From the NCBI RefSeq assembly GCF_030643805.1, contig NZ_CP094656.1, positions 2,170,001 to 2,234,000 on the forward strand: DNA of 64,000 nucleotides. Reading direction: 5' to 3'. This DNA is from Alkalihalobacillus sp. AL-G (GTDB taxonomy: Bacteria; Bacillota; Bacilli; Bacillales; Fictibacillaceae). The notes under the pieces were generated by a model that was given only the letters and a program-made list of their open reading frames with translations, ran no database searches and was not told the DNA's origin. Made by a program: the position numbers and the translations under genes. Shown here piece after piece: positions 29,236 through 62,835 of this stretch. Within the stretch, counting starts at the first letter, position 1. Each line of letters begins with the position of its first letter.

Positions 29236-29760
29236 ATGCATTTGATCTTTATCAGTATTTTTCTGATGGCAGCATTAAAGTGGGGAGATTGGAAACGATG
29301 GCGAGATTATTATCCGACCATCTTATTTTTAATTACTGGGGATCTTCTTTATAACTTCCTTTTCTTTAATCATAGTATGTGGGCCTATCAAGAAACGATT
29401 TTTTTGGAGGATATCTTAACCAAACACACTATCATTTCACTTATGATCATGTTCATTGTATACCCATCAACGGTATTGATATATCTTGGGAAATTCCCAC
29501 ATGAACAAGGGAAGCAAATACTTTGGATTATGTTCTGGATTCTAATTTATGTTGTAGTTGAATTTATCAATTCACGTTTTTTACATTTAATCAATCACCA
29601 AAATGGTTGGAATAATTGGTGGTCGCTTGCATTTAACGTAGTGATGTTTGTAATGTTGCGAGTCCATCATAAAAATCCATTAATCGCTTGGGGATTATCT
29701 TTGCTATGGATCCTATTCTTATGGAACATGTTTAAAATTCCATTTGAAATATTAAAGTAG
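29236..29760 (+). CDS. CBO0543 family membrane protein (first of three)
   Basis: The protein has 174 residues, five or six helices, and is rich in Trp and Phe. The opening (MHLIFISIFLMAALKWGDW) and the motif FVEFINSRF-like stretch (here VVVEFINSRFLHLINHQNGW) near residue 110 match the CBO0543 family of small membrane proteins found in sporeforming Firmicutes. No ribosome binding site of good strength is seen. It is the first of three consecutive genes of the same type and size, 9 bp before the second. Function unknown. Confidence 0.75.
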   Translation: MHLIFISIFLMAALKWGDWKRWRDYYPTILFLITGDLLYNFLFFNHSMWAYQETIFLEDILTKHTIISLMIMFIVYPSTVLIYLGKFPHEQGKQILWIMFWILIYVVVEFINSRFLHLINHQNGWNNWWSLAFNVVMFVMLRVHHKNPLIAWGLSLLWILFLWNMFKIPFEILK

Positions 29761-29769
29761 GGTGTAGAT

Positions 29770-30270
29770 ATGAAAAGCATCGCATTTGCAATTTCTCTGT
29801 TTATAGTTATAAGTTGGTTGGTATTGAATGTTTATTGGTATTCCAAGAAATCATTATCATTTGTACAAAACATGATCGTGTATATGGTTCTCTCAATTTT
29901 CATTATGAACTACTTTACAATCTTATCTCTTCAATTAAAATATATTGAGTTTACCAGCAATAAAGCATTGTTTCTTTCCTTGCTTTTTGAGCGAGGAATA
30001 ATGTCACCCATTTCCATCCTATTTTTTGTAAACCTCTATTTGTTGTCGAGCACAAACTTGATGAAAGGTCTGCTTACCGCAGCTGCTTTAATCATACTTA
30101 CCGTTTTTGACTATTTAATGGTTACGCTAGGTATTCTTTCATATCCTCATTGGAACTATTTTTATGCAATGTTGATCAATTTAGTGTTGTTATTTGTAGG
30201 ACTGTGGTTGGCTAAGCTTACGATCGTCGTAAAAAAATGGGAGACTCAAAAAAATGAAGGTAATTTATGA
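29770..30270 (+). CDS. CBO0543-like membrane protein (second of three)
   Basis: This 166-residue protein has five hydrophobic helices and a short charged C-terminus (KKWETQKNEGNL). It is less conserved than its neighbours but shares size and helix order, with a short FDYLMVTLGILSYPHW loop in the position where the others have EFIN or EWIALKVGLF. It overlaps the next gene by 17 nt, so translation is coupled. Probably a diverged paralogue. Function unknown. Confidence 0.7.
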   Translation: MKSIAFAISLFIVISWLVLNVYWYSKKSLSFVQNMIVYMVLSIFIMNYFTILSLQLKYIEFTSNKALFLSLLFERGIMSPISILFFVNLYLLSSTNLMKGLLTAAALIILTVFDYLMVTLGILSYPHWNYFYAMLINLVLLFVGLWLAKLTIVVKKWETQKNEGNL

Positions 30271-30763
30271 AAATTCATTTGATATAAACGAATGGTATGT
30301 GTTGACTACTCTTACTGTTCTAATTGTTCTCGTTTGGATTACACCGAAGATCCTCCCCCTGACAGAAGCAATCGTTTATTTATTATACGGGATTTTTGTT
30401 GGTATGTTTTATGACCACACGGTTAGCGTAAAACCGTGGGATTTTTACGATGTAAATGATAGCTCCGCCTATCAGGTGATTGATTTTATAAGCTATTTGG
30501 TATATGGACCACATAGTTATTTTTTCATTTACTTTTATGTTAAGTTTCGTATTAAGGGATTTAAAAATATTTTATATGTATTTATCTGGGTTCTTTTTTC
30601 GCTCGTTAACGAATGGATTGCATTAAAAGTGGGATTGTTCCATTACGAAAAAGGGTTCTCAATGTATTGGTCAGTATCAACATATGTACTGGCTCAAACC
30701 TCACTTATTTTGTTGTATCATATCATTCGTCTTAATAGAACGTTCGTAGAAAAACAATTTTAG
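30254..30763 (+). CDS. CBO0543-like membrane protein (third of three)
   Basis: The product has 169 residues and about five helices. NEWIALKVGLFHYEKGFSMYWS near residue 115 parallels the EFINSRF region of the first protein, and VKPWDFYDVNDSS near residue 60 is an exposed loop. The start lies inside the previous gene behind GGGAGACT. The three genes likely make a hetero-oligomeric or functionally redundant membrane set. No catalytic motif is evident. No terminator is visible before the MFS gene, which may be co-transcribed. Confidence 0.72.
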   Translation: MKVIYENSFDINEWYVLTTLTVLIVLVWITPKILPLTEAIVYLLYGIFVGMFYDHTVSVKPWDFYDVNDSSAYQVIDFISYLVYGPHSYFFIYFYVKFRIKGFKNILYVFIWVLFSLVNEWIALKVGLFHYEKGFSMYWSVSTYVLAQTSLILLYHIIRLNRTFVEKQF

Positions 30764-30856
30764 CGAGATGAATTTAAGCAGATTTCTCCAAAGGTACACT
30801 GTTTTCATGTAACATAGGATAGGTGAATGCTACTAAGGAGAAAGAAGGCTTCCAGT

Positions 30857-32047
30857 ATGAAAAATACAACCTTGATTTCCAAGGATAAAATATGGACTCG
30901 GGATTTTATATTCGTATGTATTTCGAACTTTTTTATTTTTGCCGGTTTTCAAATGACCCTTCCAACACTTCCGCTTTTTGTAAACGAACTTGGTGGAAGT
31001 AACCAGTTGATCGGGCTAGTAGTCGGTATTTTTACTTTTTCCGCTTTACTTATCAGGCCTTGGTCTGGCCATGTGCTAGAAACGTTAGGAAGGCGGTTTG
31101 TCTACCTTACCGGCTTGGCTATTTTTGTGATTTCAGTAGCTACTTATTCCTTTACTTCGAGTATCATTTTTTTATTTTTGATGAGGATCGTCCAAGGATT
31201 AGGGTGGGGGATGTCAACCACTGCTGTCGGTACAATTGCAACAGACCTTATTCCTGCAAAACGTAGAGGGGAAGGGATGGGCTACTTCGGTTTGGCTGGT
31301 AACCTAGCAATGGCTTTTGGACCGGCATTAGGATTAATACTCGTCGTAGTACTCGATTTTTCATGGACATTTATGATTGCAGCATTTGCCGGACTAGCTG
31401 CATTCGGTATTGCAGCATTAATTCGTTACACACCAGGTGAAAAATCAACGGGTCCAAAAAAGAAGTGGGATATCTATGAAAAATCCGCACTCGTACCCGC
31501 AGTTCTTTTATTTTTCATCACGATGACATTCGGTGGAATCACATCGTTTTTACCACTTTATGCTGAACAACAGCACGTGAGCGGAATAGAATGGTATTTC
31601 TTCGTTTTTGCCATTTCACTCATGATTGTCCGTGCGTTTGCAGGCAGGGTGTACGATAAAAGGGGTCATCGGGCGATCTTTATTCCTGGGACCCTACTCA
31701 TTTTACTAGCAATGATCGATTTATCGTTTTTAGAAAATGAGTGGATGCTACTGTCTGCTGCAATGTTTTTCGGTATCGGATTCGGTGCCGTCCAACCGGC
31801 TTTGCAAGCATGGGCAGTCCAGGAGGCACCAAAGAATAGAAGAGGGATGGCGAATGCGACATTCTTTTCTTCATTTGACCTCGGAGTAGGGTCGGGAGCG
31901 ATTTTCTTCGGTTTCATCGCTTCATGGTTCGGTTATAGTCAAATTTATCTGGTGTCAGCAGTTTCTGTAGTTATTTCCATGTTGCTTTACATTGTACTGA
32001 CAAAAAATACTGGACATGAAACAAGACAAAAAGAAGCAATCGGATAA
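30857..32047 (+). CDS. MFS transporter
   Basis: This 396-residue protein has 12 predicted helices. The start at 30857 is preferred (AGAAGG 8 nt ahead); an ATG at 30827 sits too close to its AGGTG. MFS motif A occurs as GHVLETLGRRFVYLTG (loop 2-3), and a related GRVYDKRGHRAIFIPG occurs in loop 8-9. RIVQGLGWGMSTTAVG in helix 4 is typical of drug:H+ antiporter-type members (YwoG-like). Substrate unknown; efflux of small molecules is the usual role of this subgroup. It ends at a strong shared terminator. Confidence 0.88.
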   Translation: MKNTTLISKDKIWTRDFIFVCISNFFIFAGFQMTLPTLPLFVNELGGSNQLIGLVVGIFTFSALLIRPWSGHVLETLGRRFVYLTGLAIFVISVATYSFTSSIIFLFLMRIVQGLGWGMSTTAVGTIATDLIPAKRRGEGMGYFGLAGNLAMAFGPALGLILVVVLDFSWTFMIAAFAGLAAFGIAALIRYTPGEKSTGPKKKWDIYEKSALVPAVLLFFITMTFGGITSFLPLYAEQQHVSGIEWYFFVFAISLMIVRAFAGRVYDKRGHRAIFIPGTLLILLAMIDLSFLENEWMLLSAAMFFGIGFGAVQPALQAWAVQEAPKNRRGMANATFFSSFDLGVGSGAIFFGFIASWFGYSQIYLVSAVSVVISMLLYIVLTKNTGHETRQKEAIG

Positions 32048-32054
32048 AGATAAG

Positions 32055-32085
32055 AAAGAGGGATGACACGGATCATCCCTCTTTT
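32055..32085 (+). terminator. Bidirectional Rho-independent terminator
   Basis: AGAGGGATGA/TCATCCCTCT perfect 10-bp stem followed by TTTT; A-rich upstream arm allows termination of the converging DUF3817 transcript. Confidence 0.85.
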
Positions 32086-32389: not shown

Positions 32390-32549
32390 TATGAATTCAA
32401 CTCCTAAAACTATACATATAATAATAGCTTTGCATATTTATATACTTGGTTTATTATAACAGGACCTAACGATGATAGACTTCCTAAAGTGTAACCGTTT
32501 TATGACAATTTCAGATCTACTATGGACCAACAAATTAACATTGTGAACG

Positions 32550-32714
32550 CAAAAAAGAGAACAGACCTGCTATCTGTTCTCTTCATATTTGTTAAAATTT
32601 TAAGATTGTATCAACAATGGATTTGTGCTATCATATATCTTATTGTGTGCATAAATATTATAAGGCTATAAAAATACCCACTATAATCTTATAATAAAAT
32701 CCTTTGATTGTCAA
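32550..32714 (-). ncRNA. Predicted small RNA with its own promoter and terminator, about 130 nt
   Basis: On the minus strand, TTGACA (32714-32709), a 17-nt spacer and TAAGAT (32691-32686) form a near-consensus vegetative promoter. Reading left from about 32679, a perfect 10-bp stem AGAGAACAGA/TCTGTTCTCT (32582-32556) is followed by six T on that strand, a textbook intrinsic terminator. No protein gene lies between. The longest ATG frame is 13 codons with no ribosome binding site. The promoter points away from helD, so the region looks like an independent small RNA. No known family was recognised. Confidence 0.5.
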
Positions 32715-32738
32715 CTATTTTTTGGGGAGTGATTTTAT

Positions 32739-35078
32739 TTGACTGAAAATAATAAAGAACGGAAACAGGAACAACAGCGAATCGACTTGATACTTAGTTT
32801 GATTAATAAAAAAATGCTTGCTCTTAGCACTAATGTCGGTAGTTTGAAACAGGATATCGTCTCAATACGTAAAAGTTTTTGGGATGACGTCAAGATTAAC
32901 ATCGATAATCCGGATGAAGTGATAGAAACAGTCACGAGCATCAGACAGCAAGCCGAATTTCTTTCTGAGCGAGAAAGAAGCCATCGTCAATCCTATAACC
33001 ACCATAAAAATCTTAACAGATTGAAATACTCCCCTTATTTTGGACGTATCGACTTCAAAGAGGATCAGCACAGCAAATCTGAACCTATTTATCTTGGAAT
33101 TACCTCATTAATGGATGAAAAGGAAGAGGATTTCCTCATCTATGATTGGCGAGCGCCGATTTCAAGTTTGTATTACGATTATTCACCAGGTCTTGCGAAA
33201 TATGAAACACCCGGAGGAACGATTTCTGGAAAGATGGAATTAAAACGTCAATATATCATACAAGACGGACGAATCAACAGCATGTTTGATACGGATATAA
33301 CGGTTGGAGATGAATTGTTACAAGAGGTTCTCGGGAATAATGCCAATACGAAAATGAAGAGTATTGTAGCCACCATTCAAAAGGAACAAAACCAAATCAT
33401 CCGAAACGAAAAAAGTAAGCTCCTTATTGTACAGGGAGTTGCCGGAAGCGGCAAAACCTCTGCTGCACTTCAGCGTATTGCTTACTTACTTTACCGGTAT
33501 CGTAAAACAATGAATTCCGAAAATATTATGCTGTTTTCTCCTAACGATCTCTTTAATAGCTATGTTGCTACCGTACTTCCTGAATTAGGAGAAGACAATA
33601 TGATTCAAACGACATTTCAGAAATACATTGAAACCCGGCTCCAAAAACAGTTTGAAATTGAGGATCCGTTTCAGCAAATGGAGTATTTGCTTACCTCTAT
33701 GGACGATCCAAATTTTAAAACAAGAATGGACGCAATTAAATATAAGGCTAGCCTTGATTTCAAGCAACTTATCGATCGATATGTCGAATCTCTTGCACAA
33801 AAGAATCTAATTTTCAATTCAATTACGTTTAAAGGAGATACGCTGATTTCAGCCGAACAGGTTCACGATTATTTTTATTCTCTTGATCCATCGATTTCAA
33901 TCCCGAATCGGATCCAGCTGGTATCGGAATGGTTATCAAAAGAAATCGCCAAGTTCGAACACGTCGAACAGAAAAAAGACTGGGTAATTGAAGAATGTGA
34001 ACTGTTAGAGAAAGAGGATTATCTAGAAGCCTATAGTAAACTACAGAAAGGTAAGCGATGGAATGAGGACACGTTTGATGATATAGACCGTGAACAGGAA
34101 CTTCTAGCGAAGGAGCTCGTGAAAAGATATTTTAGACCAGTCAAAAAAACGATCAAGCAATTGAAATTTATCAATATGACAAAAATTTATCAGCAGCTAT
34201 TTGAACAATGGGAGTTGAACAGCCTATCGTTTCCGACAATACCATCGAATTGGAATGATATTTGCAAACATTCTTTAAGGAACTTATCTCATAATCGATT
34301 ATTATACGAAGATACAACTCCATATCTATATTTACAAGATCAACTCGAAGGTAGAAAGTCGAATACAATGATACGTCATTTATTTATCGATGAGGCTCAG
34401 GATTATTCGCCATTCCAGTTTGCCTTTCTTCAACAAATCTTTCCGAATTGCAGAATGACCATATTGGGTGATCTCAACCAAGCGATCTATGCTCATACCC
34501 TGAACGCCCCGACACTTTTGAACAACACCTTATTCGAATTGGAAAAACAGGAGAAGATCACACTGACACGGAGCTATCGTTCAACACGTCAAATTGTCGA
34601 ATTCACCAAAGGCTTGATTGACGGCGGTGAAAGAATTGAAGCATTCAATCGAAATGGGCAGAAACCCTCAATTACTATTGTTGAAGGCAAACAGTCTCTG
34701 CATTCAAAAATCATGCAACGGTTACAATCTCTTAAGAATGATAATCATCCAACGATTGCAATAATCTGTAAGACAGCTCAAGAGTCTATCAACGCATTTA
34801 ATGATCTTTCACATATAGCCAAGGTCCAGCTCATGGTGAATGAAACTGATTCCTATACGAAGGGGATTTTGATTCTTCCTGCCTATTTGGCAAAAGGAAT
34901 CGAATTTGATGCGGTAATTATTTACAATGGATCAAAAGAACAGTATTGTCGCGAGTATGAACGTAAGCTTTTTTATACAGCATGTACAAGAGCGATGCAT
35001 GAGCTCCACATTTTTTCGATTAGTGAAAAAAGTCCGTTCATGGACAATGTATCCGAAGAAAAATATAGTTTAACTTAG
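32739..35078 (+). CDS. helD: HelD-type RNA polymerase-associated helicase-like ATPase
   Basis: This 779-residue protein starts at a TTG behind GGGGAGTG. The N-terminal charged coiled region (residues 1-95) corresponds to the arm that enters the RNA polymerase secondary channel; IYDWRAPISSLYYDY near residue 134 is a HelD hallmark. The UvrD/Rep-like ATPase has Walker A GVAGSGKT (233-240), DEAQDY as Walker B, and late motifs TLTRSYRST and FYTACTRAMHEL. HelD recycles stalled RNA polymerase and is linked to rifampicin tolerance in some species. Lengths fit. It ends at a strong terminator. Confidence 0.92.
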   Translation: MTENNKERKQEQQRIDLILSLINKKMLALSTNVGSLKQDIVSIRKSFWDDVKINIDNPDEVIETVTSIRQQAEFLSERERSHRQSYNHHKNLNRLKYSPYFGRIDFKEDQHSKSEPIYLGITSLMDEKEEDFLIYDWRAPISSLYYDYSPGLAKYETPGGTISGKMELKRQYIIQDGRINSMFDTDITVGDELLQEVLGNNANTKMKSIVATIQKEQNQIIRNEKSKLLIVQGVAGSGKTSAALQRIAYLLYRYRKTMNSENIMLFSPNDLFNSYVATVLPELGEDNMIQTTFQKYIETRLQKQFEIEDPFQQMEYLLTSMDDPNFKTRMDAIKYKASLDFKQLIDRYVESLAQKNLIFNSITFKGDTLISAEQVHDYFYSLDPSISIPNRIQLVSEWLSKEIAKFEHVEQKKDWVIEECELLEKEDYLEAYSKLQKGKRWNEDTFDDIDREQELLAKELVKRYFRPVKKTIKQLKFINMTKIYQQLFEQWELNSLSFPTIPSNWNDICKHSLRNLSHNRLLYEDTTPYLYLQDQLEGRKSNTMIRHLFIDEAQDYSPFQFAFLQQIFPNCRMTILGDLNQAIYAHTLNAPTLLNNTLFELEKQEKITLTRSYRSTRQIVEFTKGLIDGGERIEAFNRNGQKPSITIVEGKQSLHSKIMQRLQSLKNDNHPTIAIICKTAQESINAFNDLSHIAKVQLMVNETDSYTKGILILPAYLAKGIEFDAVIIYNGSKEQYCREYERKLFYTACTRAMHELHIFSISEKSPFMDNVSEEKYSLT

Positions 35079-62687: not shown

Positions 62688-62835
62688 TTGTAAAGTGAGC
62701 TTCAAAAAGGAAGAGGAAAAGAGCCCTCATAAAGGAAGTTCGATTAAACCTATCACGTCCTGTAATAACGTCGAACTGACTCACATCGGGTGAACCTCCG
62801 GACTTTTTGAACAACCTCTGAAAGGAGAATTGGCT

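Follow-up and report, generated by a model that had tools for sequence, protein, structure and literature searches.

A probable PhelD/Panti-helD-type convergent promoter switch upstream of helD in a Pseudalkalibacillus strain

Opposing promoters upstream of rifampicin-responsive genes

In Bacillus subtilis, the promoter pair PhelD/Panti-helD and the antisense RNA ashelD sense sub-inhibitory rifampicin by transcriptional interference (Sudzinova et al., January 2026, PMC12802891). The layout was established by 5'RACE, Northern blot, mutation, and in vitro transcription. Transcription of helD begins 98 nt upstream of its start codon, the two start sites lie 39 bp apart, and the ashelD RNA comprises approximately 90 nt and has two terminators. 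In the presence of rifampicin, ashelD falls and helD mRNA rises. This induction is abolished by mutation of the antisense -10 element, by a promoter swap, by 17-bp gap shortening, or by a rifampicin-resistant RNA polymerase. The sense promoter shows slow escape, and the authors' model holds that interference is relieved once polymerase carrying rifampicin is arrested at the antisense promoter, the busier of the two. Antisense transcription is reported to be GTP-initiated. A 19-bp spacer, stressed as unusual, was assigned to the antisense promoter, with an alternative -10 element (TAAAAT) yielding 18 bp; the authors' own search accepted spacers of 16-20 bp and promoters located 45-100 bp apart and at most 300 bp upstream of the gene, free of overlap with other genes, and called for a summed FIMO motif score of at least 30 (PMC12802891).

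Two further systems are related in principle. The B. subtilis pair Panti-pps/Ppps is likewise convergent and lies upstream of a rifampicin-resistance gene, albeit a different one (PMC12802891). The actinobacterial rifamycin-associated element (RAE) also confers rifampicin-responsive control on helD-type genes (PMC12802891), but it consists of a palindromic 19-bp sequence within the 5' UTR, whereas the element described here is a promoter pair. The locus presented below would add Pseudalkalibacillus to the range of this antibiotic-sensing promoter switch, which has been defined by experiment.

Architecture of the helD upstream region

The window analyzed is a stretch of 64,000 nucleotides from Alkalihalobacillus sp. 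AL-G (NZ_CP094656.1, positions 2,170,001 to 2,234,000), a strain that belongs with Pseudalkalibacillus. It encodes a HelD protein that scores 1284.9 bits against the equivalog model HelD_BACSU (cutoff 419) and matches the B. subtilis HelD structure 6wvk over its full length (E 3e-278). Of the three acidic N-terminal tip residues, D56 and E60 are kept, and N57 replaces D57. The elements upstream of the gene are summarized in Table 1; start sites were set, by assumption, 7 nt past each -10 element.

Table 1. Features at the helD locus, numbered as in the window
Feature	Position	Strand	Description
Antisense promoter (Panti-helD equivalent)	32714-32686	-	TTGACA (32714-32709), 17-bp spacer, TAAGAT (32691-32686), read from the sequence; predicted start ~32679 (G)
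Predicted antisense RNA (ashelD-like), ~129 nt	32679-32551	-	Inferred from promoter and terminator
Intrinsic terminator of the antisense RNA	32584-32551	-	13-pair stem and six T (32556-32551)
Predicted helD sense promoter (PhelD)	32606-32634	+	TTGTAT (32606-32611), 17-bp spacer, extended -10 TG-C-TATCAT (32626-32634; TG 32626-32627, TATCAT 32629-32634)
helD ribosome binding site	32724-32729	+	GGGGAG, from the sequence
helD, Class I HelD RNA polymerase recycling factor	32739-35078	+	NCBIfam HelD_BACSU; TTG start, 779 aa
DUF3817 membrane protein gene	32389-32105	-	TIGR03954, 101.5 bits; next downstream on the antisense strand

An initial annotation of this interval had proposed an independent RNA of approximately 130 nt, transcribed divergently from helD and bounded by its own promoter and terminator. 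The minus-strand promoter is present exactly as described there, and so is the hairpin followed by six T. The latter consists of AAGAGAACAGA-TAGCAGG-TCTGTTCTCTT, the 3' end of the unit reading GAAGAGAACAGATAGCAGGTCTGTTCTCTTTTTT on the minus strand, and folds with a minimum free energy of -17.2 kcal/mol (z -5.4); for the whole predicted RNA, the fold z is -2.6. Read on the plus strand, the hairpin lacks a T-tract, a point absent from the initial annotation, and the terminator therefore serves the minus strand only. Since the DUF3817 gene points away as well, the antisense unit is the sole annotated feature in need of it. As had been stated, no credible reading frame is found: the ORF list contains none of at least 50 aa between 32550 and 32714. 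In this interval, Rfam yields nothing at or above a family's gathering score; the sole match in the window is a Bacillaceae-1 RNA (RF01690) at 62728-62794 on the plus strand (54.2 bits, gathering score 35). The proposed RNA, which had not been recognized as a known family, is thus absent from Rfam, but its counterpart in B. subtilis is ashelD/Panti-helD (PMC12802891).

The interval additionally contains a predicted plus-strand promoter of helD that had not been noticed before. Transcription from it would start at approximately 32641, 98 nt 5' of the helD TTG codon (32739). Its -35 element is a weak match, and its position is less sure than that of the antisense -35. This sense promoter faces the minus-strand one; the distance between the predicted start sites is 39 bp with both included, and approximately 51 bp separate the two -10 ends. 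The pair is located 25-133 bp before helD, within the gap at 32390-32738, and overlaps no other gene. The antisense terminator lies beyond the sense -35 (32606), as in the dual convergent-promoter layout. The description as divergent from helD consequently is probably wrong, since the predicted RNA starts inside the helD leader: its first ~39 nt are perfectly complementary to the leader, and the remainder crosses the helD promoter. The hexamer matches, ten of twelve in the antisense promoter and fewer in the sense promoter, agree with the former being predicted as the stronger one.

In both B. subtilis and the strain studied here, the convergent promoters precede the same gene with a Class I HelD product, 39 bp separate the start sites, and the helD start lies 98 nt upstream of the gene (predicted values in the present case). 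A strong antisense promoter, here predicted to start with G, and a short terminated antisense RNA are further common traits. The structural hallmarks of the PhelD/Panti-helD type, i.e. spacers (17 bp in both promoters), convergent orientation, distance, position, and a Class I HelD encoded downstream, are all found. The differences concern the antisense spacer, which measures 17 bp instead of 19 bp (or 18 bp with the alternative -10) and falls into the 16-20 bp accepted in the authors' search, so that a 19-bp spacer is not required; the length of the predicted RNA (~129 versus ~90 nt); and the neighboring gene, which is DUF3817 on the antisense strand here and yvgT there, with its terminator facing the other way.

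Conservation within Pseudalkalibacillus and across Bacilli

P. decolorationis DSM 14890 (G002) is the closest of the examined congeners that carry this helD. Its unit, measured from promoter to terminator, shows 74% identity, and the DUF3817 neighbor is also present. The two antisense hexamers are unchanged, the sense promoter reads TTGTTA-N17-TGCTATCAT, and the terminator stem displays an A-T to G-C compensatory change plus one mismatch. The internal block conserved between the two genomes corresponds to the opposing helD promoter. In the congeners G004, G005, and G007, the antisense promoter takes the form TTGAC(T/G)-N17-TAAAATTA(T/A)AATAGGG, and the leaders are longer. A DNA search of 34 genomes of the family returned convincing E-values for P. 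decolorationis only; the remaining matches, 27-38 bp in length and A+T-rich, were disregarded.

For a broader comparison, approximately 100 helD upstream regions were collected, mostly from Bacillaceae, Brevibacillus, Aneurinibacillus, and their relatives, with approximately ten loci of no assignable orientation excluded; B. atrophaeus (L125) is included in the set, B. subtilis is absent from it. A pair of convergent promoters was counted when it scored at least 19 under a scheme of our own and its start sites were 30-52 bp apart. Such a pair occurs in 74 of 99 regions, compared with 2.3% of dinucleotide shuffles and 0.3% of random window stretches, and at a score of at least 21 in 46 of 99 (0.1% of shuffles), counts that describe conservation and not independent trials, as the helD loci share ancestry and comprise a few near-duplicates. 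The 25 regions failing the criterion include some with a leader exceeding the scanned stretch. The median spacing of the start sites in such pairs is 38.5 bp. In 42 of the 74 dual-promoter loci (2.7% of shuffles), the next 220 nt contain a terminator. The rule applied was strict and overlooks mismatched or long-looped stems; the stem sequences are unrelated between genera.

The antisense promoter itself follows the consensus TTGACA-N17/18-TAAAATTATAATAGGG in 89 of 100 upstream regions, including other Pseudalkalibacillus with longer leaders. Taking the TAAAAT-type -10 element, the spacer measures 17 bp in 73 and 18 bp in 16 of the matched loci. This conserved TAAAAT/TATAAT-type -10 at 17-18 bp favors the 18-bp alternative for the B. 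subtilis antisense promoter and suggests that the 19-bp spacer is not general. When 63 loci were aligned on the antisense -35, information dropped to background past the first transcribed bases; conservation is confined to the promoter and these first bases, leaving the RNA body, alignable among close relatives only, almost without conserved sequence. The predicted first bases of the antisense RNA carry a conserved GG, and this G-rich start fits the GTP-initiated transcription reported in B. subtilis. The comparison of ~100 Bacilli helD regions thereby supplies a comparative definition of the element: the above antisense consensus, a distance of ~39 bp between the starts, and a terminator preserved in its presence but not in its sequence. 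The link to helD suggested in the initial annotation proved correct, the layout being conserved with this gene across Bacilli, and the check it had recommended in related genomes found promoter, geometry, and terminator preserved, but not the RNA body.

Proposed mechanism and rival explanations

The antisense promoter and its RNA are probably real, and together they very probably represent the antisense component of a switch built from two convergent promoters, of the PhelD/Panti-helD type. Both promoters, the 39-bp geometry of their predicted start sites, the terminator, and the conservation with helD can be read from the sequence and the comparison of genomes; promoter strengths, interference, and induction by rifampicin in this host we infer from the B. 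subtilis experiments. Without rifampicin, polymerase from the strong minus-strand promoter would transcribe ~129 nt across the weak helD promoter and displace polymerases there, before halting at the 32551 terminator, which would guard the DUF3817 gene from read-through. Low rifampicin would arrest polymerase preferentially at the busier antisense promoter, so that interference ceases; drug-free polymerase at the sense promoter could then transcribe helD, and HelD would protect RNA polymerase. Promoter interference, not a separate regulatory RNA, is the likely mechanism; the process of transcription would be what counts, with the antisense RNA most likely as its by-product. There is a slight chance that this RNA is functional in addition, either by pairing of its 5' ~39 nt with the helD leader or by reporting polymerase or GTP status through its level to other targets in this lineage.

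A stand-alone small RNA that base-pairs in trans with other mRNAs or in cis with the helD leader would account for the dedicated promoter and terminator, for the perfect complementarity to the leader, and for the 74% match of the unit to that of P. decolorationis. It is nevertheless an unlikely explanation, because the body is nearly devoid of conserved sequence past the first bases in the 63 aligned loci, the internal block kept in the close pair is the opposing helD promoter, and in B. subtilis a promoter swap or a rifampicin-resistant polymerase abolishes regulation, which argues for interference (PMC12802891). As the predicted minus-strand RNA starts in the helD leader and its body is unconserved while promoter, geometry, and terminator are conserved, the initial picture of an independent RNA is retained in part: a terminated non-coding minus-strand RNA is well supported by the conservation in Bacilli, whereas its role as a stand-alone regulator is probably wrong.

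Less probable still is that the minus-strand promoter drives DUF3817 and the hairpin acts as a regulated terminator in the leader of that gene. DUF3817 does lie downstream on the same strand, here as well as in P. decolorationis, but across many genera it is helD that the antisense promoter accompanies, with no common sequence beyond the promoter, the fold shows no antiterminator alternative, and the gene has a separate extended -10 (TG-T-TATAAT) just upstream. That promoter-like sequences and a hairpin occur by chance in this A+T-rich intergenic DNA can practically be dismissed. Single sigma-A-like hexamer pairs are indeed common in this A+T-rich region (20 found, 16.7 expected), yet the combined unit, defined as a promoter with at least ten of twelve matches followed within 200 nt by a perfectly paired stem (9 bp or longer) and a T-tract, is found just once in the window, both strands counted, namely at helD, and in none of 40 dinucleotide shuffles, and it is conserved across helD loci.

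Some additional features were observed near the switch candidate and elsewhere in the genome. A 13-pair terminator at 32055-32084, with A/T tracts on both sides, separates the DUF3817 gene from a convergent MFS transporter gene (30827-32047, +) and may serve both. Three consecutive ORFs for small membrane proteins (166-174 aa) at 29236-30763 (+) look like tandem paralogs. At ~820043-822181 (L128, G000:C1), beyond the window, lies a gene for another HelD-like protein, which is shorter (~709 aa) and passes the HelD_BACSU cutoff only with its pieces summed; no comparable promoter pair stood out at this gene on inspection by eye. A rifamycin-inactivating phosphotransferase gene, rph/pps, is likewise located outside the window, at ~3515488-3516838 (L126, G000:C1; NF041857, 1400 bits). 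No high-scoring promoter pair was found in its upstream region, where the antisense strand has an extended -10 kept in one congener (G007).
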